Shown: in pieces, positions 6,570 to 45,113 of the stretch | How positions within the stretch are numbered: position 1 is the first letter of the stretch | Layout: each line of letters opens with the position of its first letter | DNA from: Histomonas meleagridis | Taxonomy: Eukaryota > Parabasalia > Tritrichomonadida > Dientamoebidae | DNA: 64,000 nt | NCBI GenBank assembly: GCA_020186115.1 | Contig: WSYJ01000105.1 | Span: 94,475-158,474 of the forward strand | Direction of reading: 5' to 3' | The notes under the pieces: generated by a model | What the model was told of the DNA's origin: nothing | Seen by the model: the letters and a program-made list of their open reading frames with translations, nothing else | Databases searched by the model: none | Program-made: the position numbers and the translations under genes

Positions 6570-6743
6570 TTAGTCATATTTCTTGAATCCAAGAAGTCCG
6601 GCACGTTCACGGAAACATCTACGGCACATGTTGATTCCATATGAGCGGATAACACCACGACGGCGTTGGCAGCAGCGGCAGCCACGATCAAAAGCACCTT
6701 TGGCATGTTCGCGGTTGTGTTTAGGAACAAATTGGGTTGGCAT
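6570..6743 (-). CDS. RPS29: 40S ribosomal protein uS14 (S29)
   Basis: A 57-residue zinc-binding protein of the small ribosomal subunit. It has the C-x2-C ... C-x2-C ribbon: C22 and C25 in GCRCCQ, C40 and C43 in MCRRCF. The family signature [13 protein letters not shown] and the terminal GFKKYD are present, so length and motifs match eukaryotic S29. The start is the ATG of MPTQFV at 6743. Upstream codons belong to the leader, which contains repeated ACCG/CGGT elements at about 6764-6781. Confidence 0.93.
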
Positions 6744-7197
6744 TAGAAAAAAGGGAGAGACCAAAACCGTAAAAACCGAAAAACTTCCGGCACTTTTTCT
6801 AATGGTCTACTGTTCACTATTTTGCATGTCAAAATTAGCTATACAAAAAGGAATTGATAAAAATGCCTAAAATATTTATTAATATTATTTGAAATTAATA
6901 TTATTTGCTATAACAAAATGAAATTTATTTAAAATATTTAATGTATCGCTCATTCATTTAAAAATAATCATACGGAAATAGTTAAAGTTTATAAATAAAT
7001 TTACTTTGTTCTTCTTAAACAAGGGGAAATTGATGTAAATGCATAACTTGATAGAAAACATCTCAATGATTTGGCCACATGAAAAACTTTCATAAATAAA
7101 TTTTGCTCTCAGAGCCAATTATCCAAAAACACAAATCCTCTTTTAAATATAAAAATTAGTCTTGTTAATTTTTACTTATTCAATCAAACAAGACTAA
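6744..7197. other. Intergenic, AT-rich
   Basis: Contains the uS14 promoter at its left end and the 3' flank of the ankyrin gene at its right end. A faint ankyrin-like trace (GAAATAGTTAAAG... near 6975 and AATTGATGTAAATGC near 7028-7042, plus strand) suggests very old ankyrin debris. Nothing else was recognised. Confidence 0.35.
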
Positions 7198-8926
7198 TTA
7201 CATTTTTGATTGTAATAAATTGATTATTTCTTTGTTTCCACTATTTTTAGCATGATCAAGTGCTGTATTAAATAAAACGAATTCATTCCAAATATTTATA
7301 CAAAACACGAAAATATTATTATAAATATTAAATAATACAAATTAATATCTTTAATGTTAATATCAATTTTTTCATTGGAAATGAGTTCTTTAGCAATTTC
7401 AGTTCTCTCTTTTAAGCATGCGTGAATTAGTGCGGTCCAAAGTAATTTGCATAAACACCCAACAGAATTATTAAACATTAAATAAATTAAAATTAACTTC
7501 ATATTTAATAAATAAATATTTTTAGCATTAATATCAATTCCTTCCTGTTCAAGAAGTAATTTCACTATTTCTGTATGACCTTCACTTGCTGCTCTAGTGA
7601 GTGCTGTATTAAATAATATAAATAAATCCCAAATATTATTTTATAATATCAAATAATTATAATTAACTTCATATTTAATAAATAAATATTTTTAGCATTA
7701 ATATCAATTCCTTCCTGTTCAAGAAGTAATTTAACTATTTCTACATTACCTTCACTAGATGCTAAAATAAGTGGTGTATCAAATAATTTAAATAATTTCC
7801 AAATATTATTTTATAATATCAAATAATTATAATTAACTTCATATTTAACAAATAAATATTTTTAGCATTGATATCAATTCCTTCTTGTTTGAGAAGTAAT
7901 TTAACTATTTCGTCATATCCTTCTTTAGATGCATACATAAGTGGTGTTGAAAATCACCGAAAAAATCACAAATTATTATAATCAAATATCAAATTATTAA
8001 AATAAATTTCATATTTAAAAAATAAATATTTTGGGCATTAATATCAATATCTTTATGTTCAAGAAGTAATTCAACAATTTCAGTATAACCTGCTACACAT
8101 GCTAAAATAAGTGCGTTATCAAATAAATTAAATATTTTCCAAATATTATTATAATATATCAAATATTTAAAATAAATATCAAATTATATTTATAAAAATC
8201 TTCAGCATTAACATCAACATCTTCATGTTCAAGAAGTATTTTAACCATATTTGTCAAACCTTTTGAAGCTGCGTAAATAAGTGGTGTATAAAATATATAA
8301 AACAATTTCCAAATATTATTTCGAAACATCAAAAAATTAAAATTAACACTAAATCACACAAATAAATATCTCTTTCATTTACATCAATCTCTTCTTGTTT
8401 GAGAAGGAATTTAACTATTTTCTCATCTTTCGTTTGAATTGCTGAAAATAGATCTTCTGGTAAATCTTCAAATTATTAAAATTTATGTCATCTTCATCAT
8501 TATTTCCATAGTTAAGTATCATATTCATAATTTGAAAACATACATTTTCTCTTGCATAATCAAGGGCTGTTTTAAATATTTAGGACAATTTCCAAATATT
8601 ATTTCAAAATTTCAAATTATTAATATAAATATTAATAAAAAGAAATTGATGTTTTTTGCATTAATATCAATTCCTTCTTGTGCAAGAAGGAATACAACAA
8701 CTTCACCACGATCTTTTGAAGAGGCAAGCATAAGTGCTGTTTCAAATATTTTAACTAAATTCCAAATTTTTTATTGAAACATCAAATTAAATATATCTGA
8801 CTGAAAATGGATTAAATGAATATTTTTAGCATTGACATCAACCTTTCCTTGTTCAAGAAGGGATTTAACTTTCTCTAGGTTGCCATCGTAAGATGCCTTC
8901 AAAAATTCTTGGATCGAAGATTCCAT
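7198..8926 (-). CDS. Ankyrin-repeat gene with ankyrin repeats separated by 68-69-nt spacers
   Basis: Read on the minus strand, the gene begins MESSIQEFLKASYDG (ATG 8924-8926) and ends with a typical last ankyrin repeat, TALDHAKNSGNKEIINLL, and stop at 7198-7200. Ankyrin cores start (coding direction) near 8740, 8570, 8457, 8287, 8117, 7947, 7777, 7607, 7436 and 7266. Core spacing is 170 nt, apart from one 171 and one 113. Each core is stop-free and matches TALxxASxxGxTEIVKLLLEQEGIDINAKD. Between cores lies a conserved AT-rich spacer that changes frame and usually holds TGA or TAA. Removing 68 or 69 nt per spacer gives the standard 34-residue repeat throughout. Ankyrin arrays mediate protein binding; no partner can be named. 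The splicing is inferred, and an old pseudogene is the alternative. Confidence 0.6.
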
Positions 8927-8929
8927 TCA

Positions 8930-9178
8930 GTTAAAACTAAATGTCATAACGGTTTTTCACAAAAATTGAATAGATGACATTTTGATTGATAGTCAAACTT
9001 GTAAGTTGTCATCGTTTTGTAAACAATTCATTTTAACTAGTTTTTCAAAATAACGTACTTACAAAATTACTTGTTTCACAACAGATATATTTGGTAATAA
9101 TGGTTAGTGATTGTCCTCGTTTTATGATACAGCTTCATGTATTTTTGATCCATGTCCTTTTAATGCATGTTTGGTATT
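8930..9178 (+). repeat. Left arm of a perfect 249-bp inverted repeat
   Basis: By eye, this arm is base-for-base the reverse complement of 9684-9932. It starts GTTAAAACTAAATGTCATAA and stops three bases short of the start codon of the ankyrin gene on the minus strand, so it is also that gene's promoter region. It contains an AACGG motif (8958-8962). Confidence 0.92.
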
Positions 9179-9375
9179 CTTCCAATTTAATTTTATTCAA
9201 ATAATGATAAAAAGAACCTTTTTATACCTAAAGAACCTTGTTCAACACGAAAATGTTTCGTTATTAAGTTTTAGTAATTTCGAAAAAGTAATCTTTAAAT
9301 GTAAATTAAATTTATGTGGAAACTAAAAAATTATATTGAAATGATGGATGCCATAACTAATGTTTATTAATGAGT

Positions 9376-9561
9376 TTAGCGGGCCCATGATGGTGCTTGT
9401 TGAGTGTAATTCCATCCGTAGTCACCATGGCATTTGGGACAACAGTTTGCTGAACTATCCCTGTTACCATTTTGATCCTTATGGCAGTTATTGCAATAAA
9501 TAGTATTGCAACGACGGCAGATTTTCCAGCAGTTTGCAACTCCGCAAAATGGACAACCCAT
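9376..9561 (-). CDS. Small zinc-ribbon protein, 61 aa
   Basis: The short protein is packed with paired cysteines: CPFC (3-6), CRRC, CNNC-H and CPKC-H. This is the spacing of two treble-clef or ribbon-type zinc sites. It has no signal peptide. I cannot assign a family. The gene lies in the 505-bp space between the two arms of the perfect inverted repeat. Directly before its ATG the coding strand reads TTTCACTTCATTTGCA, which holds two Inr-like TCA elements. An intact frame and a good initiator support real expression. It could be cargo of a duplicated or mobile segment. Confidence 0.65.
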   Translation of the reverse strand: MGCPFCGVANCWKICRRCNTIYCNNCHKDQNGNRDSSANCCPKCHGDYGWNYTQQAPSWAR

Positions 9562-19751: not shown

Positions 19752-21976
19752 ATGAACAATTGGGAAACAATTCAGTTTATTCAACAAAAAATATTTTCCT
19801 TAAATAAAGAAAATCTTGTTCAAGCAGCTATTTCAGTGTTTGATATATTTGATAATAATTATCAGTATTCATTTAACTTACTTATTAGTCAAATAATTTA
19901 TTCATCATTTGTAGCAGGTATGAATGATTTAGAAGTCTATATGAATTTCATTAAAGAAATAAAAAAATTTGAAGATAACAAACAAACTCAAAGTAAAATA
20001 CATAAAGTTTTTTTACAAATGATTTTAAATATATATTCTCAAGAATCAAATTATTTTCTTGAGAGAATGATTCAAGAAAATTTATGCGAATCAAACATAG
20101 TTGTACAGATGAGAGAAGAATCGTATTTTATACATTACATGTCCAAAAAATTTCTAGAAAAAAAAGAATATTTGAAACAAAATATAGTAAACATTGAAAA
20201 ACTTTCAAAGAATGATTGGGAAATTCATAAGAAACTTATTAAAGAAGGACAAAATCCTAATGAAATTTCGAAAATAATTCGAAATGATGAAATAGAAAAA
20301 CTTCAAGAAATATCAGCACAAAATGAATTCGATTTTAATCAAACAATTAAACCATCACTTTATGAAAGATGTTCTTTTATTAATACACAAAATGTTACAT
20401 TAATTGATTATGCAGCATTTTTCGGATCAATTAAATGTTTTAAATATTTACTTATGAATGGTTCTGATATAAAAAATACAGGTAGGTATGCAGTTGCAGG
20501 TGGAAATGAAGAAATCATTCATTTATGTGAACAAAATCATTCATCATTTGAAGGTGCATATGAAGTAGCAATTGAATTTCATCGAAATGATATCTTTAAA
20601 TATCTTTATGAAAATAAAATTGCTGAAATTAATAATTTAGAAGAATTTGGAAAGAAGTGTATTTCATCTCATAATTATGAAATTTTTATATTTTTACAAA
20701 AAGAAGGGATGCTAATTTGCGAAAACATTATTAATGAATCAACAAAAATTGGAAACATATTTCTCATAAAACATTTTCTTGAATGTAATCAAATTCCGAA
20801 AGATATTTTAGTATTTTCATCAGAGTCAGGAAATATTGAACTTGTTAATTATATTTTAATACAAGAAGGAATTGATATTAATGCTAAAGATATTTATTTG
20901 TTTTATTTAAAATTTATTTTAATAATTTGATATTTCAAAATAATATTTGGAAATTATTTAAATTATTTAAAACAGCACTTATGTGGGCATCTGAAAATGG
21001 TCGTACAGAAATCGTTAAATTACTTCTTAAACAAGAAGGAATTGATATCAATGCTAAAGATATTTATTTGTTTTATTTAAAATTTATTTTAATAATTTGA
21101 TATTTCAAAATAATATTTGGAAATTATTTAAAATATTTGATACAGCACTTATGTGGGCATCTTTAGAAGGTCATAAAGAAATCGTTAAATTACTTCTTGA
21201 ACAAGAAAGAATTGATATCAATGCTAAAGATATTTATTTGATTTATTTAAAATTTATTTTAATAATTTGATATTTCAAAATAATATTTGGAAATCATTTA
21301 AATTATTTAGAACAGCACTTATGGAAGCATCTTATAATGGTCATACAGAAACAGTTAAATTACTTCTTGAACAAATAGGAATTGATATTAATGCTAAAGA
21401 TATTTATTCGTTTTATTTATAATTTATTTTAATAATTTGATATTTCGAAATAATATTTGGAAATCATTTAAATTATTTAGAACAGCACTTATGGAAGCAT
21501 CTTATAATGGTCATACAGAAACAGTTAAATTACTTCTTGAACAAATAGGAATTGATATTAATGCTAAAGATATTTATTTGTTTTGTTTATAATTTATTTT
21601 AATAATTTGATATTTTAATATAATATTTGGAAATTATTTAAATTATTTAAAACAGCACTTATGTGGGCATCTTTAGGAGGTCATAAAGAAATAGTTAAAT
21701 TACTTCTTGAAAAAGAAGGAATTGATATTAATGCTAAAGATATTTATTTGATTTATTTAAAATTTATTTTAATAATTTGATATTTCAAAATAATATTTGG
21801 AAATTATTTAAAATAATATCATATTTGAAAATTATATAAAGTATTTTGAACAGCATACATGTACGCAAGAAAATGAATATACCGAAATAATTGAAATGTT
21901 TCGTAAAAAAGAAGGAATCCAAGATGATATAACAGATAAAGCAAATGATCAAATGGAATTCTTTCCATTTTGGTAA
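19752..21976 (+). CDS. DUF3447/ankyrin-repeat gene with a 170-bp unit array
   Basis: The first continuous part (19752 to about 20891) encodes roughly 380 residues. It has an N-terminal helical region, then a DUF3447 block (IDYAAFFGSIKCFKYLLMNG ... KNTGRYAVAGGNEEIIHLCE) and ankyrin repeats ending EGIDINAKD. Five further ankyrin cores follow near 20972, 21142, 21312, 21482 and 21652, each 170 bp after the last. Every core is stop-free (for example ALMWASENGRTEIVKLLLKQ). The spacers shift frame and carry TGA. A last degenerate repeat ends FFPFW and stop at 21974-21976 but has one extra frame slip near 21866. Removing 68 nt per spacer joins all cores in frame. This family is large in trichomonads; the function is unknown. 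The final slip may mean 3' decay. Confidence 0.65.
20869..21800 (+). repeat. Six near-identical 170-bp ankyrin-plus-spacer units
   Basis: GAATTGATAT recurs every 170 bp (about 20869, 21039, 21209, 21379, 21549, 21719). The units at 21312 and 21482 are almost identical, pointing to recent unit duplication or gene conversion. Each unit is 102 nt of ankyrin coding sequence plus 68 nt of AT-rich spacer. Confidence 0.92.
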
Positions 21977-22696: not shown

Positions 22697-23510
22697 TTAT
22701 TTGAAATTGAAATATCTTTGATAAACAATATCTTCTGTAGTAAATTTAATAGTATTATTATATGTTATGTTTGTCATAACTTCTACATCATATTTAGAAT
22801 TTTCGCTAATCATATATTTATAACATTTGATTCCCGTAGTAACATTAACATCAGCTTCTGAATTATCGATTTCTTTGCCTTCACGATTATATGATACAAC
22901 TTTAAATGTGTATAACGTTCCAACATCGTGTGCTTCGATTATTGCTAAATAATTAATTAGATCTTTTGTTACCTTGCTAATCACTGGATTTGCTTTGTCA
23001 ATCGAATAGTGATGTTCTTCAAACTCGTGTTCAGTCGTCCTTTGCTTAAGATAAAACATAGTGTTAACAAAGACTATCCTTTCAAATTCTGTTGCATTAC
23101 ATTTGCTGTGTCCTGTTTGAATCATTGCTGTGTTTCCATAAGTATTAAGATAAAAATTTTCTGTTTCAGATATTTGACTGGTACTATCGGGAAACGAATA
23201 CCAAATATCTCCAGTGGCATTTTGCTTCGCTGTATGAGAAAAGTAAATTATATATATATTGTTATTAAATACCAAATAAATAAAACAAATATATAATTAT
23301 TTAAAGAAATATCCCTCGCATTAACATCAATTCCTTTTTGTTCAAGAAGTAATTTAACAACATCTATATAGGCATTTCCAGATGCTTGCATTAGAGCTGA
23401 TCTAAAGAATTTGAATAAAATTGAAAAATTATTTTGATATATAAAATTATTAAAACAAACAAAAAATAAAACAAATTAATACCTTTAGCATTAATATCAA
23501 TAAAAAATGA
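22697..23510 (-). pseudogene. 5'-truncated ankyrin array joined to an unrelated 3' exon
   Basis: Read on the minus strand, an ankyrin tail (IDINAKG, about 23500) is followed by a spacer, one full core (SALMQASGNAYIDVVKLLLE, then QKGIDVNARD) and a second spacer ending CTCATACAGC. At the position where TAL should begin the next core, the frame instead reads TAKQNATGDIWYSFP and continues open for about 175 residues to 22697. That part is unknown, Asn/Thr/Tyr-rich, with no ankyrin pattern. There is no ATG at the head of the open frame, and the 5' end of the array is missing. Either a shuffled 3' exon or a chance fusion by deletion could produce this. Confidence 0.55.
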
Positions 23511-25271: not shown

Positions 25272-26020
25272 ATGTCAATTAGGTTGCGAGACGATAGCTT
25301 TTTTTCAGAGAAATATCACAATTCAGAATATTCACATTTTTATTCATATATGAAAATTCATGAAGGATTTAACACAAATCAATTTAATAATGAGTGGGAA
25401 ACGCTAATGTCAAGAAAACAATTGGTGTTTGAAGCAAATAAAGAAAATATTATTCACTCAGCAAATTTAATTTTTAGTGAAATGGAAGAAAATTTCAATT
25501 TAACTTTTAACATAATCCTAAGTCAAATGATATACATACTATGTTTTATAAAAATAAACGATGTTGATTTTTATTTAAGATTTATGAATGAAATAGAAAC
25601 TTTGGAAGAAAATAATAAAAATAAAGATAAAATATATGATATATTAAAGAAAATCCTAAATAAGCCCACACAAGAATATAATTATATTCTTGAACACATG
25701 ATTGAAAATAATTTTATTCCAGTAAAAGTTGTTCAGAATAAAAAAAAATTCAATATTTTATGCATTATATTCCTAAAAAAGATATAAACGAAATTTGTAA
25801 TAAAGTTGAAAAATTTAAAGAACTTTCAAAGAATAATTTTGATCTTCATAAACAATTAATTAAAGAAGGAATTGATATTATTTTTCTCTATTATATATTC
25901 ATTTTAATAATTATGTATTCCAAAAGAATATTTCGAAATAATTGAAAATATTTAGAACAGCACTTGAATATGAGATCGCAAAATTACTTCATTCCAATAA
26001 GGAATTGATTCCTCTTAAAA
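25272..26020 (+). pseudogene. Decayed DUF3447/ankyrin gene
   Basis: The N-terminal region is recognisable (NEWETLMSRKQLVFEANKEN, LSQMIYILCFIKINDVDFYL) and parallels the starts of the genes at 19752 and 45113. The frame breaks near 25780, continues in another frame as KELSKNNFDLHKQLIKEG, then jumps straight to a spacer-like sequence. The DUF3447 core and the intervening repeats are deleted. A last trace, ACAGCACTTGAATATGAGAT (25956-25975), is a degenerate ankyrin core. The protein cannot be full length. Confidence 0.8.
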
Positions 26021-30199: not shown

Positions 30200-30359
30200 T
30201 GAATAAATAATTAGTTTGCGGATTTTTTTATGTGCAATATTTAAAAGATTGAAATATGAAAAATATTCATGTTTTTATCTTAAAAAAGTTTTAAACAAAA
30301 AACGTTTTTCAAATATTATTTTGAAATATCAAATTATTAACAAAATACATATTAAATAA

Positions 30360-31117
30360 AACTAATATAAATATTTTAGCATTAATATCAATACCTTCAT
30401 GTTCAAGAATTAATTTAACGACTTCTGTTCGAAATTTTGAAGATGCTAATATAAGTTCTGTATAAAATAATTTAAACAATTTTAAAATACTGTGTTGTTT
30501 TTCTGAATCACATAAATGAATATTTCCAGCTTCAAAATCATCTCATGATTCGTGTAGAGATTTTCTATGAAAAAGTTTTTAATTGAATTGTATTTAATCG
30601 TGAGCCGTTATAAACCCGACCGATTATCTTCTCAATTCCTAAGGCGATCAAAATGAATTGAATTTCTGGTAAACGAATTTTGGATTTAAATAGGTTTTCG
30701 GACTTTTTGTAGCATAATATTTCCCATCATGTATAAAATAAAACATGTACTAAAATATATTTTGAACAATTTTATTGATTTTAGGCATAATTAGTTTTCT
30801 CATCATAGTAAACCATTGAAATTTATTTCTTGTGCGCATAATCAGCCGGACAAATATCACAATAATTATTTTTGGCTTAAAAAACCTTTTTTATTAAATC
30901 GTTTAAATGTACATTTATATTAGATGTGACTTTATTGTTCTATTAAAATGTTCTTATTTCTTTTATAATATTCCAAATCTGCATAATTATTTTTAATTAC
31001 AAATAAATAATATATCATTTGAATAATAACTAAATCATAAGATAAATGATGAATTTCATCGATAAATTTATCGATTATTAAACATAAAGATCGAGTGAAA
31101 TTTTCTTTATTCAAACT
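30360..31117 (-). pseudogene. DUF3447/ankyrin gene fragment
   Basis: On the minus strand, 31117-30932 encodes SLNKENFTRSLCLIIDKFID, a match to residues 16-75 of the gene at 19752. After a gap, 30480-30360 carries a single ankyrin core and the start of a standard spacer. The frame has no ATG, and the DUF3447 core is missing. The remnant is one more member of the same family. Confidence 0.7.
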
Positions 31118-42757: not shown

Positions 42758-43284
42758 CAATCCTTTGTAGTAAACGAAACTTCACTCACCTTAAGGGAAA
42801 AGAATTGTCCTGAATCAACTCGAACAGCATTTGTTTGTTACTTTAAACTGAGCAAAAATCAAAATTGCCATTTTCCATAATTTTGGGTTTTTTTGAGGCA
42901 AAATAAAAAAGCCAAATAAAAAGTCAGGAAATTTCTTTTTCTTTATGTTTAAGGCTATATAATCAACAGCTTCAAACTTTAAATATTAAACCCATCAGAA
43001 TTTAACTGTTTCTATTTTATGTTTAATAATTTGAGATTTAATATATAGTTTCATACAAATTTTTTTTTCTTAATATATTTATTAACATGTCATTGCATGA
43101 GTAATATTTTGTTCTAACACATTTACAATGTATCATTTTACACATAATATTCGGTTGAATTTTGTTATTATTTATTTTTAAAATTAGTGAAAAATAATGT
43201 TTTGGAGAGCATTATCAAGGACAGCCCTTAAGAAAAATTGGTAAATAGTGCAACAAATTTGGAAAAAGTTACAAGTTTTTGCCC
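42758..43284. other. Intergenic between convergent genes
   Basis: AT-rich and non-coding. No structure seen beyond T and A runs. Confidence 0.4.
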
Positions 43285-45113
43285 CTATTCTAAAAGTAAT
43301 TTAACAATTTCATTGTGACCTCCCCTATATGCATACATTCGTGCTGTTCTAAATAATTTAAATAATTTCCAAATATTATTATGAAACATAAAATTATTAA
43401 AATAAATCCTAAATAAAACAAATAAATATCTTTTGCATTAATATCAATTCCTTCTTGTTCAAGAAGTAATTTAACTATTTCTGTATCACCTTTTGAAGAT
43501 GCCAAAATAAGTGCTGTTTCAAATATTTAAAATAATTTCCAAATATTATTATGAAACATAAAATTATTATAATAAATTTTAAATAAAACAAATAAATATC
43601 TTTTGCATTAATATCAATTCCTTCTTGTTCAAGAAGTAATTTAACTATTTCTGTATCACCTTTTGAAGATGCTTTTATAAGTGCTGTCCAAAATAATTTA
43701 AATAATTTCCAAATATTATTATGAAACATAAAATTATTATAATAAATTTTAAATAAAACAAATAAATATCTTTTGCATTAATATCAATTCCTTCTTGTTC
43801 AAGAAGTAATTTAACAATTTCTGTATGACCTTTTGAAGATGCCAAAATAAGTGCTGTTTCAAACACTTCTAATAATTTCCAAATATTATTTTGAAATATC
43901 AAATTATTATAATAAATACTAAATAAAACAAATAAATATCATCAGCATTAATATCAATTCCTTTTTGCTTTAAAATGTATGTAACAAGTTCAATATTTCC
44001 TGAAAATGAAGCAAAAACTAAAGTATTTACTGGAAGTTGATTATTTTTATGGAAATATTTTACAAGAAAAATATTTCCAATTTTTACTGCTTCATTAATG
44101 ATATTTTCATTAATTTTCATTCCTTCTTTTTCTAAATATATAAAAATTTCATAATTAAAATAAGAAATGCATTTTTCTCCTAATTCTTTTAATTGATTAA
44201 TATCTTCAATTTTATTTTCATAAAAATATTTAAAGATCTCATTTTGATGAAACATAATTGCTGTTTCATATGCACCTTCAAATGATGGATGATATTGTTC
44301 GCATAAATGAATGATTTCTTCATTTCCACCTGCAACAGCGTATTTACCTGTTTTTTCGACACTTGCATGATTCATAAGTAAATATTTAAAACATTTAACT
44401 GATGAAAAAAATGCTGCATAATCAATTAATGTAACATTTTTATGATTAATAAATGAATATCTTTCATAAAGTGATGGTTCAATTGTTTGATTAAAATCAA
44501 AATTTGATTGTGACGATATTTCTTGTAGTTTTTCAATTTCATCATTTCGAATTATTTTAGCAATTTCATTTGGATTAACTCCTTCTTTAATTAATTGTTT
44601 ATGAAGTTCAAAATCATTCTTTGATAGTTCTTCATAATCAATATTTTCTTGATCAAATAAATACTTATATTTATCTAATTTATCTTGATTAATATGAACA
44701 AAAAATGGATTAAATGTATTTTTGATGAATTTTGATTCAAGTAAATTATAATTAATCATGTAATTAAGTAAATAAAATGATTCTTGTGTGTTTTCTTTAA
44801 GTAAAAATTGAGCAAATAAATTTATTATTTTTGTGTTAATTTTATTATTTTCTTCATATTTTTCAATTTCTTGTAATAATCTCAAATATATATCAAAATT
44901 ATTACTATTAATCAGAAGAGATGTATATATCATTCGGTTTATAGTGATATCATAAGACATTGGATATTCTTTACAAAATTTGCTGATAATAAAATTTGAT
45001 GATTGAGCAAAATTATCTATATTCAAACCAAAGATTATGTTTTTGAGCGTTGTAAGTGTTTCCCATTCGTTTTGAGATTTCTGACTTGTTGTTGCTGTTT
45101 GCTTTTTGTCCAT
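43285..45113 (-). CDS. DUF3447/ankyrin-repeat gene with 170-bp unit array
   Basis: The first part (45113 to about 43945) encodes roughly 390 residues: NEWETLTTLKNIIFGLNIDN, a helical N-region, DUF3447 (IDYAAFFSSVKCFKYLLMNH, KYAVAGGNEEIIHLCEQYHP) and an ankyrin repeat ending KQKGIDINADD. Three complete cores then start at 43857, 43687 and 43517 (TALILASSKGHTEIVKLLLE and close variants). A short last core (TARMYAYRGGHNEIVKLLLE) begins at 43347 and stops at 43285-43287. Core spacing is exactly 170 bp. Spacers are the same family as at 7.2-8.9 and 20.9 kb; two lack the internal TGA but still shift frame. Removing 68 nt each restores an open array. The core and spacer boundaries are inferred. Confidence 0.65.
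43347..43950 (-). repeat. Tandem 170-bp ankyrin-plus-spacer units
   Basis: ATATCAATTCCTT recurs at about 43441, 43611, 43781 and 43951 on the plus strand, exactly 170 bp apart. The middle units differ at only a few bases, including inside the spacer, which points to recent homogenisation. Confidence 0.92.

Follow-up and report, generated by a model that had tools for sequence, protein, structure and literature searches.

In animals, ankyrin genes carry one repeat per exon, the exons being 99 nt long and the introns of the GT-AG type and usually longer than the spacers described here. Among parabasalids, the available sections of PMC12316389 describe GT and AG in all 63 introns of T. vaginalis, with the branch site fused with the 3' motif. 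For Histomonas meleagridis, the available sections of PMC8529796 report a genome of 43 Mb with 28.66% GC and 573 introns, at most one per gene, in agreement with an earlier note on the DNA studied here that had called the lineage intron-poor. The word ankyrin is absent from the main text of that paper as available, and in the accessible text of two Histomonas proteome papers it is applied to one protein in PMC10063853 and to none in PMC6250841. Within the open-licence literature on Histomonas, Trichomonas, parabasalid introns and ankyrin exons, no title or abstract opening describes an ankyrin gene with spacers between its repeats. The H. meleagridis gene presented here, from a stretch of 64,000 nucleotides (the window), consists of single-repeat blocks parted by spacers of about 71 nt at all but one of its ten junctions.

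Results

The focal gene and other members in the window

On the minus strand of the window, the focal gene (8926-7198) runs from an ATG through eleven ankyrin blocks to a stop. One block starts from the ATG at 8926 and the other ten cores start at 8740, 8570, 8457, 8287, 8117, 7947, 7777, 7607, 7436 and 7266, with spacings, 5' to 3', of 171, 170, 113, 170, 170, 170, 170, 170, 171 and 170 nt. The earlier note had given these ten starts and a spacing of mostly 170 nt, all of which proved exact on re-measurement, and it had rightly taken the start and the terminal repeat with its stop to be intact.

The start codon and first block (8819-8926; MESSIQEF...VDVNAKNI) are followed by spacer 1 (8747-8818), which is 72 nt long in a unit of 171 nt and keeps the frame but carries a TAA; its 3' part matches the spacer profile described below at E 1.2e-4, and for this and the following E-values it should be kept in mind that the profile was built partly from units of the window. 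Next come block 2 (8648-8746, 99 nt), spacer 2 (8577-8647, 71 nt, E 2.5e-8) and block 3, which together with an irregular junction occupies 8458-8576, a 113-nt unit with a frame change and no normal spacer. In this unit, a degenerate repeat is joined to a block (EDLFSAIQTKDEKIVKFLL) that looks like the first cores of other members. Downstream lie block 4 (8365-8457; EDLFSAIQTKDEKIVKFLLKQEEIDVNERDI), spacer 4 (8294-8364, 71 nt, E 1.2e-8), block 5 (8195-8293), spacer 5 (8124-8194, E 1.8e-5), block 6 (8025-8123), spacer 6 (7954-8024, E 1.3e-3), block 7 (7855-7953), spacer 7 (7784-7854, E 1.6e-8), block 8 (7685-7783), spacer 8 (7614-7684, E 4.7e-6) and block 9 (7515-7613). Spacer 9 (7443-7514, 72 nt, again in a unit of 171 nt) is in frame, free of stops and a weak match to the profile (E 0.77); block 10 (7344-7442), spacer 10 (7273-7343, E 6.9e-5) and the terminal block with its stop (7198-7272; TALDHAKNSGNKEIINLLQSKM) complete the gene.

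Ten pieces of the gene were run against Pfam, block 8570 being left out, and seven of them reached the Ank (PF00023) gathering score of 21.1 bits, namely 8740, 8287, 8117, 7947, 7777, 7607 and 7436 (blocks 2 and 5 to 10), with 37.4 bits for block 7 and 21.9 bits for block 10. The first block (15.2 bits) and block 4 at 8457 (17.5 bits) scored below it, and the last block, of 22 residues, had no Pfam match on its own. An Rfam scan of 6600-9500 gave nothing at E<=1. The claim that the spacers shift the frame and hold stops stands for most of the gene, since the frame shifts at eight of the ten junctions and the old frame meets a stop at eight; however, junction 9 (7607 to 7436, 171 nt) keeps the frame and is open, and junction 3 (8570 to 8457, 113 nt) leaves no room for a normal spacer and is an unexplained exception. 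At nine junctions, all but junction 3, the two codons preceding the core are free of stops.

The focal gene opens directly with an ankyrin repeat, and the piece holding that repeat matched Ank profiles only. DUF3447 (PF11929) precedes the repeats in the gene at 19752, a second member on the plus strand (19752-21820) in which a DUF3447-ankyrin ORF (19752-20930) is followed by a 170-nt array with six spacers; spacers and cores were located there at 20893-21814. A third member, on the minus strand (43258-45113), has an ORF with the 26-codon repeat spacing (45113-43899) and then an array with four spacers, its spacers and cores lying at 43352-43936. Three single elements of the family are found at 23406-23479, 30303-30366 and 25888-25952.

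The family across the genome

The H. meleagridis assembly (43,276,120 bases in 121 contigs) was searched with a 109-nt query from the focal unit, which gave at least 85 matching places, 40 of 1,269 first-look candidates having been scored. Around these matches we fetched 37 regions, chosen by likeness to the focal unit, so that spacer-bearing arrays are over-represented among them; in 28 of the 37, repeats at the 26-codon (78- or 81-nt) spacing of the DUF3447 type lie 5' of units of about 170 nt. A spacer profile, itself derived from units found via their cores, identified 402 spacers at E<=1, 352 of them at E<1e-3, over the 37 regions and the window, and 22 of the 42 listed arrays have at least eight spacers in a row. 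When the protein of a relative, P0006, was compared with the genome, at least 101 matches were obtained in 95 scored stretches (8,799 candidates), although a match by P0006 alone does not imply an array. One array is present in two near-identical copies, L029 and L030 (C88), which lie about 27 kb from each other and face opposite ways.

In 27 of 32 rows, the first core belongs to a type of its own, roughly [ND]ILVF.S.SGNIELV.YIL, the remaining five comprising three that are not true first junctions (two exon-1 repeats and one internal unit) and two that differ. Three paralogues lack the first spacer and pass from repeat 1 to repeat 2 in frame, at 102, 105 and 111 nt, which makes repeat 2 part of their protein; four more have a first unit of 147, 150, 150 and 153 nt that is matched without stops, all seven having been selected for stop-free matches to P0006.

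Edges of the blocks

Block edges were analysed in 372 units that are 140-200 nt long and score above 12 bits at both cores, of which 274 are distinct at 170 nt. Among the 274, stops in the old frame number 0 at each codon from 60 to 90 and then 7, 3, 2, 5, 10 and 9 from codon 93, while stops in the new frame number 13 at codon 161 and 0 at codons 164, 167 and further; the zeros inside the core (offsets 0-89 of either core) arise partly by construction, as cores were sought in open pieces, and codons 90, 164 and 167 fall outside the profile used to find cores. Since codons 90 (ATT) and 164 (TTT) are not one step from a stop, the telling codon is the one at 167-169, which varies greatly and in most units could become a stop by one substitution, yet is a stop in no unit (AAT 54, AAA 47, GAA 38, AGA 26, GAT 26, TGG 22, CAA 19 and TAT 18; n=279). 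A removal of 71 nt fits all the stop counts, whereas one of 68 nt would require the translation of a codon at which 7 or 13 of the 274 units have a stop; we therefore replace the split into 34 residues (102 nt) and 68 nt that had been proposed for this gene by one of 33 codons (about 99 nt) and about 71 nt. The consensus over the 33 codons is F-x-T-A/P-L ... I-N-A-K-D/N-I.

Among 54 units with a length divisible by 3, 27 are readable straight through and the other 27 carry a spacer stop. Core spacings of 130-164 nt are divisible by 3 in 53 of 73 cases (L009-L045 and the window, some of them chance matches), an excess that may hint at in-frame linkers as the origin of the spacers; the length classes of the short units stem from few deletion types, and for this reason we draw no conclusion from it.

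Cores read as protein

Of the 402 spacer matches, 343 entered a test in which cores were placed solely by the end of the upstream spacer: 316 of these cores are open over 32 codons in the predicted frame, the other two frames containing stops in 321 and 339. Among the 27 cores with stops, 24 close an array, a place in which a stop is to be expected, although a few of these seem to be truncated or isolated copies. Non-terminal cores contain a stop in 3 of 302 cases, against 43% expected at the spacer stop rate of 1.76% per codon (old-frame spacer codons 93-123), which bears out selection on the cores, argued in the earlier note to act on the joined product. In blocks below 200 nt, the length between successive spacers is a multiple of 3 in 253 of 258 and exactly 99 nt in 245. 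In 38 of 41 arrays, the terminal block stays open in frame over 17 codons or more, versus 11 and 5 arrays in the other frames; the listing holds 42 arrays, one of them running off its end, and arrays with a cut-short last spacer match, including the focal one, were left out. Indel counts from a global alignment of the units were dropped as alignment artefacts (compensating gap pairs), and spacer-to-spacer lengths were used. The open cores and the stop counts, together with four hypervariable codons, establish the cores as protein-coding and the spacers as untranslated, with the frame set block by block.

Codon variation was measured in 258 stop-free units from 39 strand-loci. The hypervariable codons, 167, c4, c7 and c8, have pN of 0.50-0.63 whatever the spacer distance, including comparisons in which the spacers are less than 5% diverged. 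With the T of TPLH as position 6, they correspond to positions 5, 10, 13 and 14, which we take to be the concave binding or contact face of ankyrin repeats. In L009-L045, few codons are used per residue at these four positions (Ser at c7 is TCA in 46 of 49), as if whole codons had been swapped and not mutated.

In the cores, the non-hypervariable codons have dN/dS of 0.62-0.80, with pN/pS of 0.2-0.5 at several structural residues, but pN/pS with all codons pooled is 1.10 (409 order-matched array pairs), so that purifying selection is modest. In two paralogous array pairs, pN/pS at non-hypervariable codons is 0.054/0.078 and 0.025/0.070, on 12 and 4.5 synonymous changes respectively, a third pair (L029/L030) being left out as almost identical.

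Divergence, splice signals and structure of the spacers

Over the 409 array pairs, spacer divergence is 0.103 versus 0.129 at synonymous sites, and in the two paralogous pairs 0.063 versus 0.078 and 0.067 versus 0.070. By bins of spacer distance, the spacer and synonymous values are 0.035/0.105, 0.081/0.108, 0.125/0.125, 0.174/0.178, 0.248/0.265, 0.356/0.279 and 0.498/0.334, the binning on spacer distance itself widening the gap at both ends of the range. Mean divergence reaches 40% among the 50 most diverged units of 170 nt. The spacers, which had been described as conserved, thus diverge nearly as synonymous sites do, and their identity is due to recent duplication or homogenisation.

The spacers are AT-rich and about 71 nt long. 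A degenerate 5' motif of the Trichomonas type (GYAYGY or GTWYWD) is present in 286 of 362 units; GT occurs at nt 98 in 207 of 274 units and an AG ends at nt 173, inside the coding block, in 239 of 274, but this GT gives no boundary that preserves the frame with any 3' AG. Within nt 140-166, only 26 of 274 units contain an AG at all; the branch/3' motif (CTAAC..AG) or a bare CTAAC is seen in 1 of 362, and none of the tested boundary dinucleotides exceeds 91%. Single folds are no better than those of shuffled sequences (mean z +0.36 in 46 units and -0.15 in the 50 diverged units), and the alignment fold, which scored 0.0 for the real spacers and for all 200 shuffled sets, had no power.

A search for canonical parabasalid introns was not productive, the looser GTATGT form occurring 6 times in the genome and 10 in the control and ACTAACACACAG 3 times and 2 times. 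The stricter GTATGT..TCTAACACAG occurs once in the genome and 0 times in the control, as a 25-nt element in L063 (C30:1059941-1059965) that is possibly an ordinary short parabasalid intron.

Discussion

The best explanation for the spacers appears to be their removal at the RNA level as non-canonical introns, a reading to which, from DNA evidence, we give an even chance. A single transcript would span the gene, ATG and terminal stop included. Before translation it would lose the spacers as phase-0 intron-like elements, through a spliceosomal or other process able to do without a 3' AG and without the branch motif usual in parabasalids. Translation would then yield an ankyrin stack in which the four hypervariable positions of each repeat may form a diversified binding surface, and the symmetric module of about 99 nt would allow tandem duplication to expand the array with no damage to the frame. 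As the cores are selected as protein and the spacers untranslated, a joined multi-repeat product would require that the spacers be skipped. Counting against removal are the missing 3' signal, which is a serious objection, the drift of the spacers at about the synonymous rate, single folds no better than those of shuffled sequences, the modest purifying selection, the 27 of 54 units of a length divisible by 3 that are readable straight through, and the 113-nt focal junction with no normal spacer, and also the relatives discussed below whose ORFs end at the first block as if the protein stopped there. In its fullest form, the proposal would be that Histomonas strips hundreds of RNA segments of about 71 nt with no 3' AG, branch motif or hairpin cue, possibly by their AT-richness or length, and obtains a modular repertoire of hypervariable ankyrin binders whose predicted proteins now stop after repeat 1; this we advance tentatively, as somewhat less probable than not.

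The main rival is that the blocks are never joined, the product ending just past the first block and the downstream blocks serving as a store of modules that stay open because gene conversion or unequal crossing-over transfers them to expressed genes. Silent-cassette antigen systems work in this manner, with modules copied into expressed copies. Such a store would require no removal signals and would leave the spacers looking neutral, and hypervariable codons on a homogenised scaffold suit it well. Furthermore, among the first 16 metagenome relatives (P0001-P0016, 38-60% identity), the predicted ORF ends exactly at the I or V closing the first block in seven, and it ends within about 40 residues past the first block in seven (P0001, P0002, P0004, P0005, P0012, P0014 and P0016); P0006 ends one repeat further on and P0008 before the close of the first block. 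However, the first cores are a type of their own and not cassette-like (27 of 32 rows), hence no slot for the modules was found; nor was a recipient, as a strict pattern of contiguous consensus cores has one match in the genome, which lies inside a spacer. The search for processed, spacer-free copies ended at that same match. The terminal blocks, open and in frame in 38 of 41 arrays, and the rarity of broken non-terminal cores (3 of 302) beside far-drifted spacers also speak against a store, and we consider it rather unlikely.

The arrays could instead be decaying pseudogenes, amplified recently enough that their open cores are merely young. The broken cores in L026, L011 and L021 and a dN/dS that is not low would agree with this, but spacers of the same age carry stops at a rate that should have broken 43% of the cores and not 3 of 302, and the frame is kept by the block lengths, which makes decay improbable in our judgement. 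Recoding, in which the ribosome would shift by -1 within each spacer or hop across it, seems very improbable. Overlapping open frames are present in 232 of 287 170-nt units; in the other 55, no frame overlap exists (five each in L009 and L032, neither of which has a broken non-terminal core), and stops in the new frame are common, with 32 and 29 of 274 at codons 134 and 146. Translational bypass wants matching take-off and landing codons, but here a block mostly ends in ATT (241 of 279), whereas landing would be on TTT (251 of 279). Because no single frameshift crosses those 55 units and hopping codons are missing, joined blocks would need the spacers to be lost from RNA, and removal is favoured. 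Finally, ordinary GT-AG introns with shifted boundaries, suggested by the frequent GT at nt 98 and AG at nt 173 and by the Trichomonas-type 5' motif, have hardly any probability left, as they would leave 94 nt and break the frame at every junction, would delete the stop-free and hypervariable codon 167-169, and meet 67 of 274 units with no GT at nt 98 and a 3' motif or bare CTAAC in 1 of 362.

If the spacers are removed, the intron content of the species would be badly undercounted: 38 stretches alone hold 352 spacers at E<1e-3, to be set against the 573 introns counted genome-wide in the available sections of PMC8529796. Excision in which the usual marks play no part would then exist, and pipelines that filter junctions by motif would discard such introns; the one outlined in the accessible part of PMC12316389, which discards junctions that do not show the degenerate motifs, might overlook elements of this kind. 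If the spacers are kept, the arrays would be a protected store of hypervariable binding modules, and either outcome alters the annotation of a large gene family in a poultry parasite. The architecture may also extend beyond Histomonas, as we infer from P0077, a more distant metagenome relative in which a long hydrophobic, spacer-like stretch between two repeats is read in frame. No Histomonas-like protein with many contiguous repeats was seen in the protein collection, to which length limits apply and which is drawn from genomes and metagenomes, so that absence there says little, and no relative was confirmed in IMG/VR, where records close to the window's own genome may be missing.

Several described systems come near to these spacers. 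The Trichomonas introns, in the available sections of PMC12316389, come from a parabasalid host and are similar in size, and a degenerate 5' motif of their kind recurs in many Histomonas spacers (286 of 362 units). The non-canonical introns of the tunicate Fritillaria, as presented in the accessible part of PMC13326754, are established and genome-wide, whereas the Histomonas spacers belong to one gene family and are putative introns. The nonconventional introns of Euglena are likewise not GT-AG, but their termini form structured motifs according to the available text of PMC11170887, and in the Histomonas spacers a weak test found none.

Tritrichomonas DUF3447-ankyrin proteins (P0035 and P0075) have the same amino-terminal family, listed as DUF3447; unlike the Histomonas arrays, P0035 reads several repeats through with no spacer. 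With respect to animal ankyrin introns, the spacers are set apart by their length of about 71 nt and by the lack of a 3' AG or branch motif, whereas the modules themselves are alike, since animal ankyrins are also made of symmetric 33-codon modules interrupted between repeats.
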